Shown: positions 21,578 through 29,235 of the stretch, piece by piece
How the letters are laid out: each line of letters starts with the position of its first letter
Numbering within the stretch: position 1 is the first letter of the stretch
Assembly (NCBI RefSeq): GCF_000568255.1
Contig: NZ_KK037166.1
Coordinates: 6,791,874-6,832,809 of the forward strand
Source: Kutzneria sp. 744
Lineage (GTDB): Bacteria; Actinomycetota; Actinomycetes; Mycobacteriales; Pseudonocardiaceae
Length of the DNA: 40,936 bases
Direction of reading: 5' to 3'
Translations under genes and position numbers: made by a program
Notes under the pieces: generated by a model
Databases searched by the model: none
What the model was told of the DNA's origin: nothing
What the model saw: the letters and a program-made list of their open reading frames with translations, nothing else

Positions 21578-22731
21578 TGCGCGACCTTCCCGGCCACCTG
21601 CGACATCGCCTCACCCAACGCGTTCACGGCCTGGGACAACACCTTCTGCTGGTCCTTGGTCACCGTCGAGTAGTCGACGTAGCCGGTGTTGAGGTAGCCG
21701 GGGCTCTGCTCGTACGGCTTGAGTGCCGCCGACACCGCAGCGGCCCGGTCCTGCACCGTCTTGGCCACGTCGGGCGCATTGCGCTGCAACGCCGGAAGCA
21801 GCACGCTGAAGGCCTCCATGGAGCCGTCCAGGTTGCCCTTGAAGTCCACCAGGTCGATGTGCGAGTAGCGCTCCTCCTCGCCGGTGACCTTGGACTTCTG
21901 GATCTCGTCGACCAGCTCGGTGGCGCCGTTGGCGATCTCGGCCGGCTGGTAGCCCGCCTTGGCCACCAGCTGCTGCAGCTTGGTCACGTTGGCGACGAGC
22001 TCGTCGGCCATCGGGCCCATGCCGTCGAGCTTCTTGGCCTCGAAGACGGCCTGCTCGATCTTGTGGAAGCCCTTGAAGTCGGCGGGGTTGTCGAAGTCGT
22101 CGGCGCGGCCGTCGATGTTCTTGTCGAGGTCGCCCCAGATCTCCGCGACCGGCTCGACCTTCTCGTAGAACACGCGGGCCGGGCCGTAGGTCACACCGGC
22201 CTTGGCGATGTCGCCGGCCTTGACCGCGTCGGCGAACGTCTGCGTGCTGGTGACCAGCTGGTTGACCTGGTCGAGGACCCACTTGCCGTAGTCGGTGGTC
22301 GCCGTGACCAGGGCCGGGTTGTCCTTCCACGACTTGCTGGCCTGGCCGGTCACGTGGAAGTCCCACTTCTCCTGCTTGGCCCCGGGGCAGTAGATCTGGT
22401 AGTCGCCCTTGGCCAGCTCCAGGGAGAAGCCGCCGTCGAGGCCGGGCGTGAGGTTCTCCTGCTCGCCGAGCATCTGCGTGCCGGACATCAGCTCGGCCTC
22501 GGTGACGGCGCCCGCGTCCTTGTTGGACACCTTGAAGTTCACCGTGCCGCTGGAGATCGACGAGGGCGTCGGCTGGCAGCCGTCGGCCGTGATCGCCACC
22601 GTGACGTCGCCACCTTCGCCTGCGGGCGCGTTGTTCTGCGGGGCGCTTCCGCTGGTGCTGCTGCCCCCACAGGCGGTGAGGGCCAGGGTCGCCGCCGCCG
22701 CGATCGCGGTCAGGCCGATGGTGCTTCTCAC
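21574..22731 (-). CDS. efeO: Iron uptake lipoprotein EfeO
   Basis: A 385-residue exported iron-binding protein. The signal peptide ends in the lipobox LTAC with C21. An N-terminal cupredoxin-like domain (about 40-130) has GCQPTPSSISSGTVNFKV and YQIYCPG. An imelysin/M75-like domain (about 145-380) follows, with the HxxE motif H223-KIE226 expected to bind metal. It is thought to capture iron and pass it to EfeU. GTG 22731 overlaps the efeU stop by four bases (GTGA), and its own stop overlaps the start of efeB. The open frame continues far upstream as a shadow of efeU and is not coding there. Confidence 0.95.
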   Translation of the reverse strand: MRSTIGLTAIAAAATLALTACGGSSTSGSAPQNNAPAGEGGDVTVAITADGCQPTPSSISSGTVNFKVSNKDAGAVTEAELMSGTQMLGEQENLTPGLDGGFSLELAKGDYQIYCPGAKQEKWDFHVTGQASKSWKDNPALVTATTDYGKWVLDQVNQLVTSTQTFADAVKAGDIAKAGVTYGPARVFYEKVEPVAEIWGDLDKNIDGRADDFDNPADFKGFHKIEQAVFEAKKLDGMGPMADELVANVTKLQQLVAKAGYQPAEIANGATELVDEIQKSKVTGEEERYSHIDLVDFKGNLDGSMEAFSVLLPALQRNAPDVAKTVQDRAAAVSAALKPYEQSPGYLNTGYVDYSTVTKDQQKVLSQAVNALGEAMSQVAGKVAQ

Positions 22732-23564
22732 GGGTTGCTCGCTCCAATCAGCTTCTTCTTCGCGGCCGTCCTCGGCCACAACACGTACGCGAGCATCGGG
22801 ACGGCGTAGACCAGCCAGCCCGTCAGCTCGATCACCGTCGGGTAGGGCTGCACGCCCAGCACGCCGCTGAACAGCGAGTACAGCGGGGTTCCCTGCACCA
22901 CCAGCCACGACAGGTTCAGCGCCCGCTCCTGGCCGAACGTGAGCCAGTGCGCCTCGAACGCCGTGTGCAGCGTGGACATCACCAGGCCGGCGGCGACGAT
23001 CACCAGGACGATGCCGGTGATGCGGAAGAACCGGCTCAGGTTGAGCCGCACGCCGCCCTTGTAGATGCCGTACCCGATGGCCGCGGCGACCAGGATGCCC
23101 AGCAGCGCGCCGAGGAACGACAGCGTGGCGTTGCCGCTGGCCTGGGTCAGCGCCAGCAGGAACACCGCCGTCTCGAAGCCTTCGCGCAGCACCGCCAGGA
23201 ACGCCATGACGACCAGCGCCATGGTGGAGCCCTGGGCCAGCGCGCTGGCGGCGGCGCCCTCGAGTTCCTTCTTCAGGCCGCGGGAGTGCTTGGCCATCCA
23301 CAGCACCATGTACGTGACCATGACCACGGCCAGCGCGCCGACCACGGTCTCCAGGCCTTCCTGGCCCTGCTGCGGCAGCTCCTGGGAGACGATCCGGAGG
23401 GTGACGCCGATGACGACGCACAGCGCCACCGCGATGCCGACGCCGATCCAGACCTGCCGCAGCGTGTCCTTGCGGCCCTGTTGGGCCAGGAACGCGGCGA
23501 TGATCCCGACGATCAGCGAGGCCTCCAGGCCTTCGCGCAGTCCGATCACGAACGTGGGCAGCAT
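22728..23564 (-). CDS. efeU: Iron permease EfeU (OFeT/FTR1 family)
   Basis: A 278-residue membrane permease with about seven helices. Two iron-binding REGxE motifs are present: REGLE at 10-14 and REGFE at 127-131, each inside a hydrophobic helix. It transports ferric iron oxidised at the outer face. ATG 23564 is preferred over TTG 23576 because a GGGAG site stands six bases before the ATG, and because a predicted iron box covers 23576. It is first in the efeU-efeO-efeB operon, divergent from upp. Confidence 0.95.
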   Translation of the reverse strand: MLPTFVIGLREGLEASLIVGIIAAFLAQQGRKDTLRQVWIGVGIAVALCVVIGVTLRIVSQELPQQGQEGLETVVGALAVVMVTYMVLWMAKHSRGLKKELEGAAASALAQGSTMALVVMAFLAVLREGFETAVFLLALTQASGNATLSFLGALLGILVAAAIGYGIYKGGVRLNLSRFFRITGIVLVIVAAGLVMSTLHTAFEAHWLTFGQERALNLSWLVVQGTPLYSLFSGVLGVQPYPTVIELTGWLVYAVPMLAYVLWPRTAAKKKLIGASNP

Positions 23565-23575
23565 CAGGTCTCCCA

Positions 23576-23611
23576 ATAGGCGTGCCTAACCTGTAGGTAA
23601 GGCGAGGCTAT
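23576..23611 (-). promoter_or_regulatory. Two overlapping DtxR/IdeR-type iron boxes upstream of efeU
   Basis: Two 19-base sites each match the consensus TTAGGTTAGGCTAACCTAA at 13 of 19 positions: 23576-23594 (read on the minus strand as ACAGGTTAGGCACGCCTAT) and 23593-23611 (plus strand GTAGGTAAGGCGAGGCTAT). They share two bases and sit just upstream of the efeU ribosome-binding site. Iron-dependent repression is expected. Confidence 0.65.
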
Positions 23612-23695
23612 CTAAAACAGCCCGTGGCGCACTGTCAACCAGATGGGGGACCTGTCACGCGAAAGCCGGACATCCGGCGGCTAACGTGACCACCC

Positions 23696-24319
23696 ATGGA
23701 CGTCCTCGTCGTCGATCACCCGCTGGCCAGGGCCCGCCTGACCACCATGCGGGACGCGCGCACCGACAGCGCCGCGTTCCGGGCCGCCCTGCACGAGCTG
23801 ACTGTGATGCTCGTCTACGAGGCGACCCGGGAGGCCCCCGTGGCCACCGAGCGGATCCACACGCCCGTCGCCCGCACCGACGGCTACCGGCTGAGCAACC
23901 CGCCCCTGCTCGTGCCGGTGCTGCGGGCCGGCCTGGGCATGGCCGACCAGGCGCACAAGCTCATTCCCGACGCCCAGATGGGCTTCGTCGGGCTGGCCCG
24001 GGACGAGCAGACCCTGCAGCCGACGCCGTACATGGAGTCGCTGCCCGAGTCGCTGGCCGGCCGGCCCGTGCTGGTGCTCGACCCGATGCTGGCCACCGGC
24101 GGGTCCATGGTCCACACGATCAATCTGCTCACCGAGCGTGGCGCCACCGACGTCACCGCCGTGTGCGCCCTGGCCGCGCCCGAGGGCATCCGTCGGCTGG
24201 AGGAGTCCGGCCTGCCGGTGCGGGTTGTCACGGCGAGCATCGACGAGCGGCTCAACGAGTCCGGCTTCATCGTGCCGGGTCTCGGCGACGCCGGCGACCG
24301 TCAGTACGGGGCGGTCTGA
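23696..24319 (+). CDS. upp: Uracil phosphoribosyltransferase
   Basis: A 207-residue type I phosphoribosyltransferase that makes UMP from uracil and PRPP, the usual family length. The PRPP-binding loop is seen in [12 protein letters not shown], and the uracil-binding C-terminus in [29 protein letters not shown] is a further family motif. ATG 23696 follows closely on the divergent efe promoter; no strong ribosome-binding site is visible. It recycles uracil liberated by pyrimidine phosphorolysis. In mycobacteria upp lies beside pmmB and deoD; here those genes are 6-9 kb away. Confidence 0.96.
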
Positions 24320-24376
24320 GAAAAGCTTTACATCTAACGTTTGCCAGTTTTCCGGCTGCGTCTTTCGAGTGTCCGC

Positions 24377-24420
24377 ACTGGTCTAGACCTTGACGAAAGG
24401 TGGTCTGGACCACATTATTC
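24377..24420 (+). promoter_or_regulatory. Sigma-70-like promoter with two DasR-type (dre) sites and no clear gene
   Basis: Site 1, ACTGGTCTAGACCTTG (24377-24392), matches the DasR consensus ACTGGTCTAGACCACT at 13 of 16 positions. Site 2, GTGGTCTGGACCAC (24400-24413), is a 14-base palindrome with one central mismatch. Between and over them lie TTGACG (24390-24395) and CATTAT (24413-24418) spaced 17 bases, a good rightward promoter. Transcription would start near 24425, into the hairpin at 24427-24470 and antisense to the TetR gene. The arrangement resembles Streptomyces chitinase promoters. Confidence 0.65.
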
Positions 24421-24426
24421 GAGGGG

Positions 24427-24473
24427 CGAGGCCCGGGGAGGTCACGTGGCGGCCACTTCCCCGGGCCTCGTTT
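24427..24473 (+). terminator. Strong hairpin overlapping the tetR 3' end
   Basis: CGAGGCCCGGGGA (24427-24439) pairs perfectly with 24458-24470, and the loop contains a second stem, GTGGC-G-GCCAC. TTT follows on the plus strand. It can terminate upp transcription or the short transcript from the 24377-24420 promoter. Its right part encodes the last residues of the convergent tetR gene. Confidence 0.6.
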
Positions 24474-25077
24474 CGTGTCCGCGGACCCGGCGCCAGCCGT
24501 CGACGTGCGCCCGGACCGCCCGCTCGAAGGCCGGGTCCATCAGCTCCCGCGGCGGCAGATTCCCTTGCAGCTCCAGTGATGACAGCCCGTGCACGATGCC
24601 CCAGGCGGCCATCGCGATGAGGTCCGGGTTCTCGTCGACGAAAACGCCTCGGTCGACGCCCCGCAGCACGGTGTCGCGCAGCACGCGAAAGGCCGAGCCC
24701 GACACCTCGGCCAGCAGCACGTCCTGGTTGATGTGCGCCCGCGCGGCGTCGGTGAACAGCAGCGCATAGAGGTGGGGCTGGGCCAGCGCGTACCGGCGAT
24801 AGGCCAGGCCGAGCTGGATCAGGTCCTCGGCCGGATCGTCGGAGACCGGCGTCTCCCGCAGCTCCCGCGAGAAGCCCTCGAACGCCTCCAGGTAGACGGT
24901 TCTGATCAGGCCGGGCTTGCCGCCGAACAGCGAGTACACCGCCGTCGTCGACGTGTTCACGTCGGCCGCCAGCTTGCGCAGGCTCAGCGCGTCCACCCCG
25001 TCCAGGGAGATCAGTTCCGCCGCGCAGGTCAGCAGTCGGCCGCGCAGGGCCTCGTCGTGGGTCTTCGGTCGTGGCAC
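24442..25077 (-). CDS. TetR family transcriptional regulator
   Basis: A 211-residue repressor. The N-terminal helix-turn-helix (about 15-60) reads LLTCAAELISLDGVDALSLRKLAADVNTS followed by TAVYSLFGGKPGLI, a typical TetR DNA-binding domain. The C-terminal ligand-binding domain has LYALLFTD and AWGIVHGLSSLELQG, resembling the WHG-type C-terminal domain. Start is GTG 25077. It is divergent from the DUF4188 gene across 63 bases and probably controls it and itself. The ligand is unknown. Confidence 0.93.
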   Translation of the reverse strand: MPRPKTHDEALRGRLLTCAAELISLDGVDALSLRKLAADVNTSTTAVYSLFGGKPGLIRTVYLEAFEGFSRELRETPVSDDPAEDLIQLGLAYRRYALAQPHLYALLFTDAARAHINQDVLLAEVSGSAFRVLRDTVLRGVDRGVFVDENPDLIAMAAWGIVHGLSSLELQGNLPPRELMDPAFERAVRAHVDGWRRVRGHETRPGEVAAT

Positions 25078-25107
25078 TTGACGAGTGTATCCGAAACGGT
25101 GTTTTAT
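25078..25107 (+). promoter_or_regulatory. Candidate promoter of the DUF4188 gene
   Basis: TTGACG (25078-25083) and TTTTAT (25102-25107), 18 bases apart, lie in the short tetR/DUF4188 intergenic region. The intervening ATCCGAAACGG could carry the TetR operator, but no clean palindrome is seen. Confidence 0.35.
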
Positions 25108-25140
25108 AACGGCGTCACAAATCGCGGGGAGGGGTCAGAG

Positions 25141-25620
25141 ATGGTTTTCGACGGACGATGGACGGGACGGCTGCCGGCCGAGGGCGGTGCGGTCTTCCTG
25201 ATCGGCATGCGGGTCAACAAGCCGTGGCGGGTGGACAAGTGGCTGCCGGTGGCCTCGGCCATGCCGCGCATGCTCGTGCACCTCGGCAAGCACCCCGAGC
25301 TGGGCTTTCTCGGCGGGCACTCGTGGTTCGGGCGCACCACGATCCTCATGTCGTACTGGCGCAGCGCCGAGGACCTCATCAACTTCGCCGCGGCCAAGGA
25401 GGCGCCGCACCTGGAGGCGTGGAAGGCCTACAACCGGGCCGTCGGCGCGGACGGCACCGTCGGCGTCTGGCACGAGACCTACGTCGTGAAGCCGGGGCAG
25501 GCCGAGGTCGTCTACGCCAACATGCCGGCCTTCGGCCTCGGCGCGGCCTTCACGCACGAGCAGATCACCAAGGACAGCAACAGCTCGCGCAAGCGCCTGG
25601 CGACCGCTGGACCCGCCTGA
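25141..25620 (+). CDS. DUF4188 (monooxygenase-like) protein
   Basis: A 159-residue protein with the DUF4188 pattern: an opening GRWTG, then FLIGMRVNKPWRVDKWLPV, LGFLGGHSWFGRTTILMSYWRS and VGVWHETYVV. This is a ferredoxin-like (alpha/beta barrel) fold related to heme-dependent aldoxime dehydratase or monooxygenase-like proteins; the reaction is unknown. ATG 25141 has a GGGGAGGGG site. It is divergent from tetR, its likely repressor. The RHH gene begins 23 bases after its stop, so read-through into that pair is possible. Confidence 0.88.
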   Translation: MVFDGRWTGRLPAEGGAVFLIGMRVNKPWRVDKWLPVASAMPRMLVHLGKHPELGFLGGHSWFGRTTILMSYWRSAEDLINFAAAKEAPHLEAWKAYNRAVGADGTVGVWHETYVVKPGQAEVVYANMPAFGLGAAFTHEQITKDSNSSRKRLATAGPA

Positions 25621-25633
25621 TACCAGATTGGTA
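25621..25633 (+). promoter_or_regulatory. Operator-like palindrome before the RHH/Doc pair
   Basis: TACCA-GAT-TGG-TA (25621-25633) is a perfect 5-base inverted repeat with a 3-base centre, directly before the RHH gene and directly after the DUF4188 stop. RHH antitoxins normally bind such sites for autoregulation. Confidence 0.5.
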
Positions 25634-25643
25634 CCGTGGCCGC

Positions 25644-25850
25644 GTGGCGATGACTCTGCGGTTGAGCGAAGAGGAGAACCGCCAGCTCGACGCGCTGGCG
25701 GCGGCCGAGGGGCGCTCCAAGCAGGAGATCATGCGGCTCGCGCTGGCCGAGCGCTGGGCCCGGCTGCAGAAGGAAGAGCAGCTGGGCGAGGTGCTCGGCC
25801 GGGTCCTGCCCCGGTACCAGGGCCTGCTCGAACGGCTCGGTTCCGCCTGA
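25644..25850 (+). CDS. Ribbon-helix-helix (CopG-type) antitoxin
   Basis: A 68-residue protein. MTLRLSEEENRQLDALAAAEGRSKQEIMRLAL is a typical ribbon-helix-helix DNA-binding domain, and the C-terminal 30 residues (LQKEEQLGEVLGRVLPRYQGLLERL) form a helix that would wrap the partner toxin. GTG 25644 or ATG 25650 can start it; the former is used. It should bind the 25621-25633 palindrome and repress the operon. The gene ends one base before the Doc-like start. Confidence 0.88.
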   Translation: MAMTLRLSEEENRQLDALAAAEGRSKQEIMRLALAERWARLQKEEQLGEVLGRVLPRYQGLLERLGSA

Positions 25851-25851
25851 G

Positions 25852-26232
25852 TTGACCGAGTACCTCGACGCCGGCGACCTTCTGGTGCTGGCCACCGCCG
25901 TCACCGGCGGCGACCTGGTGGTCCGCGATCTCGGGCTGCTCGACTCCGCCGCCTACCGTCCCCGCGCCACCGTGCTCGGCGTGGAGGCCTACAACACCCT
26001 GTGGCTCAAGGCCGCCGCCGTCCTGCATTCCGTGGTCCGCACCCGGCCGCTGGCCGAGGGCAACTGGCGTCTGGGCTGGGTCGCAGCCGTCGCCCTGTGC
26101 GACATCAACGGCTGGTGGATCGACGCCGACGAGGACGAGGCCCTCGGCGTCGTCCGCGCCGTCGCCCACGGCCGCCTCGACGTCACGGACCTGGCTACTC
26201 GGTTCGAGAACTGGTCCCTGCCGAAAACCTGA
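25852..26232 (+). CDS. Doc-like (death-on-curing, Fic fold) protein with altered active site
   Basis: A 126-residue Doc family protein. MTEYLDAGDLLVLA, VVRDLGLLDSAAYRPRATVLG and YNTLWLKAAAVLHSVVR follow the family closely. The catalytic loop, however, reads R65-PLAEGNWR73 where Doc/Fic proteins have H.F.[D/E][G/A]N[K/G]R, so the general-base His is Arg and the Lys/Gly is Trp. Doc normally phosphorylates EF-Tu and is neutralised by its antitoxin; this copy is likely inactive or altered. TTG 25852 is used, one base after the antitoxin stop. Its last 38 bases overlap the convergent DinB gene. Confidence 0.83.
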   Translation: MTEYLDAGDLLVLATAVTGGDLVVRDLGLLDSAAYRPRATVLGVEAYNTLWLKAAAVLHSVVRTRPLAEGNWRLGWVAAVALCDINGWWIDADEDEALGVVRAVAHGRLDVTDLATRFENWSLPKT

Positions 26233-26776
26233 TCGCCGCTCGCTCGATCTCCGCCCGCCGCTCCTGCCAGAACGCCGCATCCCGCCGCGGGGCCGCCGTC
26301 ACGCCGTCGAGCTGCTCGCGCAGGATGTCCGCGTGCCCGGCGTGCCGGCTCGTCTCGGTGAGCATGTGGACCAGGACGTTGAACAGCATCACGTCCGGCC
26401 GCGGCCACCACGGCACGTGCCCGGCGGCGTCCACGGCCAGGGCGTCGATCGTCGCGTCCGAATGCGCGCACACGCGCCGGTAGCGGTCGACGATCTCCCC
26501 ACGGGTCTCGTGCTCGGTGGCCCACAGGTCCTTGCCGCGCTCCGCGAGGTCGTCCCACCTCGGCATGGGGTCCGGGCACGGCCGGCCGAACACCTCGCCG
26601 AAGTACCGGGCCTCCGACAGCGTCAGATGCTTGACCAGGCCGAGCAGGTTGGTCCCGGTCACGGTCAGTGGCCGCCGGATGTCGTATTCGCCCAGTCCGT
26701 CCAGCTTGCCGAGGAGCTCGGCCCGGACCTCGCGCAGGTCGCCGTGCAGATACTCCTTCGCGAATTCGTCGATCAT
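26195..26776 (-). CDS. DinB / DUF664 family protein
   Basis: A 193-residue four-helix-bundle protein of the DinB-like DUF664 group. TNLLGLVKHLTLSEARYFGEVFG carries one metal His, and LVHMLTETSRHAGHADILREQLDG the others. Members are often thiol- (mycothiol-) dependent transferases or isomerases, but the substrate is not inferable. ATG 26776 is chosen because the helix begins there; the frame extends upstream without support. It converges on and overlaps the Doc-like gene by 38 bases, and is divergent from the MerR regulator. Confidence 0.88.
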   Translation of the reverse strand: MIDEFAKEYLHGDLREVRAELLGKLDGLGEYDIRRPLTVTGTNLLGLVKHLTLSEARYFGEVFGRPCPDPMPRWDDLAERGKDLWATEHETRGEIVDRYRRVCAHSDATIDALAVDAAGHVPWWPRPDVMLFNVLVHMLTETSRHAGHADILREQLDGVTAAPRRDAAFWQERRAEIERAAIRFSAGTSSRTE

Positions 26777-26876: not shown

Positions 26877-27275
26877 GTGACTTACTCGATCGCCCAGGCA
26901 GCGGAACGAAGCGGGTTGTCCATCGACACCCTCCGCTACTACGAACGAATCGGGCTGGTCGATCCGCCGGCCCGGGACTCCGGGGGACGTCGCTCGTACT
27001 CGGACGAGGACCTCAGCTGGCTGGAGTTCCTCACCAAGCTGCGCACCACCGGCATGCCGATCCGGATGATGCGGGAGTACGCCCAGCTCCGGCACAAGGG
27101 GCTGGCCACCGCCGGCCGTCGCAAGCAGCTGCTGCACGACCACCGGACCGACGTTCGGCAGCGCATCGCCGAACTGCAGGCGTGCCTGGCCATCCTCGAC
27201 TACAAGATCACCAACTACGCCGAGGTCGAGGCCAAGCTGGCCGGCCAGACCCTGGTCCAGGAGGTGTCGGCGTGA
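26877..27275 (+). CDS. MerR family transcriptional regulator
   Basis: A 132-residue regulator. The N-terminal winged helix reads [26 protein letters not shown], followed by the wing [21 protein letters not shown] long dimerisation helix ([31 protein letters not shown]) closes the protein. There are no metal-binding cysteines in the C-terminal loop, so an organic or electrophile signal is more likely than a metal. GTG 26877 is used. The stop overlaps the first aldo/keto reductase start (GTGA), so regulator and enzymes share a transcript and the promoter at 26839. Confidence 0.94.
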
Positions 27276-28237
27276 GGCGGCTCGGCCAGCTGGAGGTCGG
27301 CCCGCAGGGCCTGGGCTGCATGGGCATGAGCCAGTCCTACGGCCAGGGCGACGAGGCCGAGTCGGTGGCCACCATCCACCGGGCCGTCGAGCTGGGCGTG
27401 ACCCTGTTCGACACGGCCGACCAGTACGGCCTCGGCGCGAACGAGGAGCTGGTGGGACGGGCCCTCAAGGGACGCCGTGACCAGGTGGCGATCGCGACGA
27501 AGTTCGGGTTCGTGCCCGGTGACGGCGGCGGGCCCGCGGTCCGCGGCGACCGTGCCTACGTGCACGAGGCGGTGGACCGCTCGCTGGCCCGGCTCGGCGT
27601 GGACCACATCGACCTCTACTACCAGCACCGCGTGGACGAGAACGTGCCGATCGAGGAGACGATCGGGGCGATGGCCGAGCTGGTGCAGGCCGGCAAGGTC
27701 CGATTCCTGGGGATGTCGGAGGCCGGCGCGGAGACGATCCGCCGGGCCCACGCCGTGCACCCGATCACGGCGCTGCAGAGCGAATGGTCGCTGTGGACCA
27801 GGGACATCGAGGCGGAGGTCCGGCCGACCTGCCGCGAGCTGGGCATCGGCATCGTGCCGTTCTCCCCGCTCGGCCGGGGTTTCCTGACCGGCAACGTGAC
27901 CTCGGTCGAGACCCTGGCCGCGGACGACATGCGCCGCAGCCTGCCGCGGTTCGAGGGCGAGAACTTCGACCGCAACCTCGCGATCGTGCAGCGGCTCAAC
28001 ACCCTGGCCGCCGAGCGTGGGGTGACGGCCGGCCAGCTGGCCCTGGCCTGGGTCCAGCACCAGGGCGACGACGTGGTGCCGATCCCGGGCACCAAGCGCC
28101 GCAAGTACCTCGAAGAGAACGTCGCCGCCGCCGAGCTGGAGCTCACGGCCGACGACCTGGCGGCCATCGCCGGCACCGTGGACGCGGTCGCCGGCGAGCG
28201 GTACCGGCCCGAAATGCAGAAGCTCGTAGGACGCTGA
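27272..28237 (+). CDS. Aldo/keto reductase, first tandem copy
   Basis: A 321-residue AKR with NADPH-dependent aldehyde/ketone reductase motifs. [11 protein letters not shown] is at the start. The tetrad residues are visible as D and Y in [10 protein letters not shown] in IATKFGF and H in [19 protein letters not shown] and IPGTKR mark the cofactor-binding region. GTG 27272 overlaps the merR stop, and a GGAGG site is inside merR. The next gene is about three quarters identical by eye. Likely induced by an electrophile sensed by MerR. Substrate is unknown. Confidence 0.94.
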
Positions 28238-28248
28238 GAAGGAGACAG

Positions 28249-29235
28249 ATGGAATCGCGCAAGCTCGGCGACCTTGAGGTGTCCGCTCAGGGCCTCGGTT
28301 GCATGGGGATGAGCGAGTTCTACGGACAGGGCGACGACACCGAGTCGATCGCGACCGTCCACCGCGCGATCGACCTCGGCGTCACCCTGTTCGACACCGC
28401 CGACATGTACGGCATAGGCGCCAACGAGGAGCTGGTCGGGCGGGCCCTCAAGGACCGTCGCGACCAGGTCGTGCTGGCCACCAAGTTCGGTTTCGTCCGC
28501 GACCCCGACGACCCGAGCGTGCGGGGTGTCCGCGGCGACGCGGCCTACGTGCGTGCGGCCGTCGACAAGTCGCTGGCCCGGCTCGGCCTGGACCACATCG
28601 ACCTCTACTACCAGCACCGCGTCGACCCGAGCGTGCCGATCGAGGAGACCGTCGGGGCGATGGCCGAGCTGGTGCGGGCCGGCAAGGTCCGCCACCTGGG
28701 CCTGTCCGAGGCCGGCCCGCAGACGATCCGCCGCGCCGTCGCCGTGCACCCGATCGCCGCGGTGCAGACGGAGTGGTCGCTGTGGTCGCGGGACATCGAG
28801 GACGAGATCGTCCCGACCTGCCGTGAGCTGGGCGTCGGCGTCGTCGCCTACTCGCCGCTGGGCCGCGGCTTCCTCACCGGCCGCTTCACCTCCACCGACT
28901 CGTTCGGCGAGGGCGACTTCCGGGCCACCGCGCAGCCGCGGTTCAGCGAGGAGAACCTGGCCAAGAACCAGGCCATCGTCGAGGCGCTGAAGGCCGTCGC
29001 CGCCGAGCGCGGCGTCACTCCCGGCCAGCTCGCCCTGGCCTGGGTGCAGCACCGGGGCCAGGACGTCGTGCCGATCCCCGGCACGAAGCGGATCAAGTAC
29101 CTGGAGGAGAACGTCGCCGCGGCCGGTCTGGAGCTGTCCGCCGACGACCTCGCCGCCATCGAGGCCGCGGTTCCGCTCGACGCGGTCGCCGGCGCGCGCT
29201 ACCCCGAGGCGGGCATGCGCTCCCTCAGCAAGTAG
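28249..29235 (+). CDS. Aldo/keto reductase, second tandem copy
   Basis: A 328-residue AKR, a close paralogue of the preceding gene. It keeps [46 protein letters not shown] and IPGTKR, so all catalytic residues are present. Differences cluster in the substrate-facing stretch near residues 85-95 ([12 protein letters not shown]) and in the loop after GRGFLTG ([12 protein letters not shown]). ATG 28249 has GGAGA upstream. It ends before a hairpin terminator at 29241-29275 shared with the convergent gene. Confidence 0.94.

Follow-up and report, generated by a model that had tools for sequence, protein, structure and literature searches.

The window, that is, the whole 40,936-nt stretch of Kutzneria DNA analysed here, carries between the convergent genes upp and tetR a compact element made up of two dre palindromes, a promoter and a hairpin. 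The position between the two genes and the palindromes astride a promoter with no gene behind it had been described in the earlier note, and both are borne out by direct reading, with upp ending at 24319 and tetR at 24442. The features are:

23696..24319, + strand: upp, uracil phosphoribosyltransferase (PF14681, E 3.4e-65), the upstream neighbour in the ancestral order
24377..24389, + strand: dre site 1, ACTGGTCTAGACC, upstream of the -35 hexamer; sequence read directly
24390..24395, + strand: -35 hexamer TTGACG, from a consensus scan; TTGAC in 6/6 Kutzneria loci
24400..24413, + strand: dre site 2, GTGGTCTGGACCAC, overlapping the spacer and the -10 hexamer; identical in 6/6 Kutzneria loci
24413..24418, + strand: -10 hexamer CATTAT (CATCAT in G006, CATTCT in G004)
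24424..24426, + strand: likely RNA start, 6-8 bases past the -10 hexamer, as judged from the promoter position
24425..24472, + strand: hairpin, with stem 24425-24442 paired to 24455-24472 and loop 24443-24454; overlaps the end of tetR
24473..24480, + strand: tail 3' of the hairpin, without a proper T run
24442..25077, - strand: tetR family regulator (PF13305 and PF00440), convergent

The two promoter hexamers are 17 bases apart, and across 23300-26200 the dre promoter is the sole sigma-70-like site in a consensus scan, against a mean of 0.2 in 50 shuffles. Both palindromes fit the DasR consensus A(G/C)TGGTCTAGACCA(G/C)T given in PMC4398421. The 11.6-Mb genome contains 10 perfect TGGTCTRGACCA cores; allowing one mismatch gives 99 and 105 matches, barely above the 90 and 98 of the control, so that a single dre-like core is weak evidence. 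The looser pattern GGTCYNGACC, with 311 and 305 matches in the genome against 345 and 338 in the control, was discarded as uninformative. The + strand frames listed downstream of the promoter run antisense to tetR, and alignments of the element, read by eye, contain no conserved reading frame.

The earlier note had placed a hairpin of 13 pairs directly behind the promoter. The hairpin is indeed present, but it is longer, with an 18-bp stem and a 12-nt loop. The fold of 24424-24485 has an energy of -39.7 kcal/mol (z -3.0; 2 of 200 shuffles equally good), and the hairpin folds on either strand. Its loop is conserved and contains GGCGGCC. Intrinsic terminators, defined as a stem followed by a T run, number zero in 23300-26200, the hairpin tails being of the kind GTTTCGT, and Rfam covariance models give no match up to E 1 in 23000-26500.

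The element is found at the same place in six of the seven genomes of the genus, the window's own included; the seventh (G003, 4.7 Mb) has upp without the element. A pattern scan of public genomes gave five matching records, three of them Kutzneria and two Allokutzneria. Both dre cores are identical in the six loci, tetR adjoins the element in each, and the short distance from the -10 hexamer to the hairpin is preserved, although 4-5 of the 6 bases of this spacer are themselves changed across the other five genomes. Divergence was counted with the window as reference, over the promoter (24377-24418, 42 bases) and the hairpin (48 bases), and compared by one-sided Fisher tests with the pooled fourfold sites of upp and tetR, which differ at 22-37% and from which the last 12 tetR alignment columns were excluded:

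G001: promoter 0/42 different (p 1.5e-5); hairpin 2/48 (p 3.4e-4); fourfold sites 63/250
G002: promoter 2/42 (p 0.0045); hairpin 2/48 (p 0.0016); fourfold sites 53/242
G005: promoter 0/42 (p 1.7e-6); hairpin 3/48 (p 2.4e-4); fourfold sites 74/252
G006: promoter 2/42 (p 2.8e-4); hairpin 2/48 (p 6.5e-5); fourfold sites 69/241
G004: promoter 2/42 (p 5e-6); hairpin 9/48, or 6/48 by BLAST alignment (p 0.009); fourfold sites 80/214

By conservation, the promoter ranks 368th of 20960 42-base segments between 14000 and 35000. The element has its own promoter and is more conserved than the neutral expectation, which is what is asked of a bacterial sRNA. We also considered that the hairpin might be kept as the coding end of TetR, whose last codons (ending GEVAAT) reach into it in four of the six Kutzneria genomes. 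In the other two, G002 and G004, the TetR coding sequence stops short of the hairpin, whose inner 30 nt nevertheless carry only 0 and 1 changes; the hairpin is therefore not kept for coding.

When the element was used as a DNA query beyond the genus, its matches were chitinase promoters, and 92 of 297 genomes gave some match. In a sample of 24 fetched non-genus loci, a second dre and a chitinase (identified by tblastn) stand behind the promoter in 23, and the 24th (L104) is like them in promoter and type of ORF, the scripted count having caught another site. The end of upp lies at most 0.4 kb upstream of the dre promoter in nine of the 24 and 0.9-1.2 kb upstream in three more. About 1 kb of other DNA separates upp from the dre-chitinase promoter in L093 and L095 (g37) and L097 (g59).

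A covariance model built from the Kutzneria hairpins (R1) matches in 64 of 297 family genomes, and we read 59 of its 60 non-Kutzneria places (G305:C6 was left out). Nine of these (L191, L207, L208, L210, and L212-L216) lack matches to upp, tetR and chitinase in their vicinity and were rejected as chance hairpins, although L208 lies at a contig edge, where neighbours could be cut off. In 45 of the remaining 50 loci, a GH18 chitinase ends directly before the hairpin; the family assignment comes from the one chitinase that was family-scanned (L184; GH18, E 4.7e-72), and several gene names in the relatives rest on tblastn with proteins of the window or the family, or on inspection by eye. The GGTCTAGACC core precedes the chitinase in 44 of these 45 loci and is absent from the L174 stretch, and tetR directly follows the hairpin in 49 of the 50, with L174 again the exception. 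This shared order of upp, dre promoter, chitinase, hairpin and tetR identifies it as the ancestral one at the locus.

It is close to certain, from this comparison, that Kutzneria has lost the chitinase coding region from between the gene's own promoter and its own 3' hairpin. The suggestion that the element is the remnant of a lost chitinase promoter was right as to its origin, and the missing downstream gene, which was to be sought in close relatives, is the GH18 chitinase; the hairpin is a further part of the same lost gene, overlooked in the earlier note. The Kutzneria genome has 15 GH18 loci, of which four match a chiB-type query at 36-43% identity and a CBM2-GH18 query, chiA, at 41-57%. 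A relocation of the chitinase within the genome was rejected: no GH18 locus resembles the lost gene, the closest being no more than 43% identical to a relative of it.

Five of the 50 non-Kutzneria loci likewise have no chitinase: G199, G042, G079 and G262, all of g37, and G023 of g18. As read by eye, G199 is half-deleted and retains both dre sites, the ribosome-binding site, the ATG, a short N-terminal remnant, the chitinase 3' end and the hairpin. In G042, G079 and G262, the hairpin is kept and the promoter has decayed after the loss, so the promoter is not always retained once the chitinase is gone. These cases were found through the hairpin, and its presence in them therefore proves nothing.

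The hairpin was examined as RNA in an alignment of 56 hairpins (41 distinct), six from Kutzneria and 50 from relatives. Of the stem cells, 96.3% are paired, with double-sided changes in 24, and none of 500 shuffles reaches any of five covariation measures, in a control that ignores relatedness and on an alignment fitted to the model. Covariation among the Kutzneria sequences alone is weak, with 32 to 404 of 500 shuffles reaching the measures. Read on the chitinase-sense strand, the pairs comprise 554 Watson-Crick, 92 G-U, 8 A-C and 17 others, with G-U outnumbering A-C by 20 to 0 in Kutzneria and by 72 to 8 elsewhere. Since a G-U pair is A-C on the opposite strand, the strand required to fold is the one that would be transcribed from the dre promoter. 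R1 was itself built on the chitinase-sense strand; the strand is nonetheless fixed by the neighbouring genes.

Between G043 (g38) and G268 (g8), the core and loop of the hairpin differ at 0 of 31 positions, as against 57 of 126 upp fourfold sites. The Kutzneria core and loop differ from both at 5 of 31 (p 5e-4 and 9e-4). Against G042 (g37) or G023 (g18), the Kutzneria hairpin core shows no significant slowing relative to fourfold sites (p 0.05 and 0.09). Taken together, this conservation appears to exceed that of a generic terminator. A common non-regulatory repeat, which the earlier note had named as a finding that would speak against the element, is not what we see: 61 of the 64 genomes matching the hairpin model have one match, and three have two (G006, where the second is on the antisense strand, G255, and G305).

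A promoter set directly against a hairpin is also found in other genera. The pattern GGTCTAGACCTTGAC-N40..70-GGCGGC occurs in 10 of 390 family genomes (0 for the reversed pattern), namely, the six Kutzneria, G016 (g11), G007 (g2) and two of g61. In G016 and G007, upp is followed by a dre and TTGAC leading straight into a strong hairpin with CGGCGGC in its loop, and beyond the hairpin a larger chitinase has a dre promoter of its own, with tetR coming next; the second dre is not intact in either genome. G068, the other g2 genome, likewise carries this hairpin loop behind a dre, with TTGATT as the -35 hexamer. The hairpin model scores 31 bits in G016 and 18 bits in G007 (E 0.056, not significant alone), and the position right behind a dre is a stronger argument for these hairpins than the score. 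The two g61 matches (G194 and G098) were set aside, having other, branched folds and no chitinase nearby.

The genome encodes a GntR protein with a UTRA domain (L141) that matches the PDB entries for YvoA (2.5e-39) and DasR (9.5e-38); it is the one examined among 13 UTRA matches and is a protein of the NagR/DasR type, not proven to be DasR itself. Its gene adjoins a PTS-permease-like frame and a dre-like site, and perfect dre cores precede two GH18 genes (at 2354746 and 7592020). Control of the element by DasR is a prediction from site similarity. A precedent exists in Streptomyces coelicolor, where, according to PMC7025569 and PMC4398421, DasR represses the sRNA scr5239 via a dre site and is released by GlcN-6-P. 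As in the Kutzneria element, a dre there precedes a non-coding RNA, and lifting DasR repression would raise the RNA. By description, the two also differ: scr5239 is 159 nt long with five stem-loops (PMC7025569), has its dre core TGGTCTAGTCCA 49 nt before the RNA and lies near dasR, whereas the element would yield one hairpin of about 50 nt, has two dre sites astride its promoter, lies beside upp and descends from a chitinase gene.

Two further known classes resemble parts of the element. Actinobacterial dre-controlled chitinase promoters likewise have tandem dre sites around TTGAC, and the Kutzneria promoter is homologous to those of the relatives in place and sequence, but it has no chitinase downstream. 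Small RNAs derived from mRNA 3' ends, as described in a review (PMC9438474), likewise involve a stable 3' hairpin as a possible sRNA; in the element, the coding sequence of the parent gene has disappeared, and the parent promoter directly drives the 3' hairpin. That review makes no use of the term pseudogene. In the open-licence literature, we found no report of the element or of a chitinase-gene-derived sRNA, and the main text of a study of Saccharopolyspora erythraea sRNAs (PMC3827479) mentions no chitinase, DasR or uracil phosphoribosyltransferase. While dre-controlled chitinase promoters, DasR-controlled sRNAs and 3'-end-derived sRNAs are known kinds, their combination is new, in that the promoter of a lost mRNA has been joined to its 3' hairpin to give a unit without an ORF.

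We lean, on balance, toward reading the element as a chitinase unit without its coding region that is under selection, controlled by DasR and expressed as a hairpin sRNA of about 50 nt. From the ancestral arrangement (upp > tandem-dre promoter > GH18 chitinase > 3' hairpin < tetR), the DNA between the approximate RNA start and the hairpin was lost in the ancestor of the six Kutzneria, setting the DasR-type promoter directly against the hairpin. Promoter and hairpin have likely been kept by selection since then, as their low divergence and the pairing maintained on one strand suggest. When amino sugars are scarce, DasR would occupy both dre sites; a rise in glucosamine-6-phosphate would take it off, and RNA polymerase would transcribe a short RNA of about 50 nt. 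With a start near 24425, the transcript would consist of the hairpin itself, and the RNA would be released at or soon after 24472 despite the lack of a proper T run. A hairpin RNA of this size is the best reading of the element's present role given the conserved promoter and the pairing on the + strand, and a function as a small regulatory RNA acting in trans is plausible; action through the loop would be a guess.

The chitinase mRNA 3' end may have played this sRNA role already before the coding region was lost. An extension of the same idea, which we put forward tentatively and hold to be possible rather than probable, is a family of chitin-signal sRNAs in which the 3' hairpin of the chitinase mRNA is regulatory and the protein was dropped in two lineages (Kutzneria, and genera g2 and g11), with the RNA keeping the chitinase promoter. 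A former mRNA gene would then have turned into a pure RNA gene.

The main rival to a hairpin sRNA is a plain relic, in which the hairpin would serve upp and tetR only as a common terminator and the promoter would fire into it, or not, to no use. Such a relic is unlikely in our view, though it deserves serious weight. Like an intrinsic terminator, the hairpin has a G+C-rich stem between convergent genes (chitinase, or upp, to tetR) and folds on both strands, and the three g37 genomes show it persisting behind a decayed promoter. The four nearer relatives also show good conservation of other intergenic DNA close by, with 49-55 of 57 bases identical in 24320-24376, 109-113 of 119 between efeU and upp, and 52-59 of 63 between tetR and the DUF4188 gene. 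A useless promoter should drift, however, and in the most distant genome (G004) the promoter retains 40 of 42 bases while only 26 of 57 remain identical in the DNA before it. A T run is lacking, the loop and inner stem are conserved across genera past what a terminator needs (the 0/31 of g38 versus g8), and the wobble pairs favor one strand. The identity of both dre cores in the six loci could alternatively reflect DasR binding as such, with the pair serving as a DasR sponge or as a roadblock between upp and tetR and the RNA being irrelevant. We consider this improbable: TTGAC is equally invariant, the hairpin is kept as well, as is the short gap between it and the -10 hexamer, and one extra pair of sites beside 10 perfect cores elsewhere would make a weak sponge.

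Two other roles were also weighed. The earlier note had proposed an antisense RNA controlling tetR and, via tetR, the divergent DUF4188 gene, and the promoter does point across a tetR that adjoins it in every Kutzneria locus. This coupling fares poorly and seems to us very improbable: an 18-bp hairpin stands at the very start of the predicted RNA, pairing in cis would need no conserved loop, TetR stops before the hairpin in two of the six genomes, tblastn finds no DUF4188 match in the 3.1-kb stretch of G004, and tetR is convergent at this same place in many genera without any dre. Less credible still is a small protein read from a short frame inside the hairpin, starting at a GTG at 24446 after GGGGAGG. 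All six Kutzneria loci share the segment GGGGAGGTCACGTG unchanged, but the sequence past the hairpin is unconserved and antisense to tetR, and most relatives' hairpins have TTTCGCGG at this point, without the GTG.

If a DasR-controlled hairpin sRNA is the correct reading, Kutzneria should make a DasR- and GlcNAc-dependent RNA of about 50 nt, the relatives should contain a stable fragment from the 3' end of the chitinase mRNA, and the link between DasR and RNA would widen from Streptomyces coelicolor to another family. The element would be a case of a gene that no longer makes a protein but whose switch and 3' RNA structure remain under selection, bearing on the origin of sRNA genes from mRNA genes. 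Weak matches to the hairpin model extend beyond the family: model R2, searched order-wide, has matches in 18 of 397 genomes, and six matching genomes outside the family score 32-42 bits (L232 in G460, L234-L238, and L240).

The surroundings of the element show several further features. Upstream of upp lies an FTR1-type iron permease gene (22728-23576, PF03239), preceded by repeat-rich DNA (AGGTAAGGCGAGGCTATCTAAAA) that, by eye, may be an iron-regulator site. The gene at 25141-25620, earlier named for DUF4188, corresponds to Pfam PF13826, currently called Monooxy_af470-like, and is followed at 25650-26232 by a small RHH protein (PF01402) and then a Fic/Doc-family protein (PF02661) in a toxin-antitoxin-like arrangement. 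A tandem pair of similar aldo-keto-reductase-like frames at 27182-29235 looks, by eye, like a duplication. In G003 (L114), the dre element, tetR, the DUF4188 gene and the RHH-Fic pair, which follow upp in the window, are all absent, and MerR-like and aldo-keto-reductase-like frames, recognised by eye and located further downstream in the window, come directly after upp.
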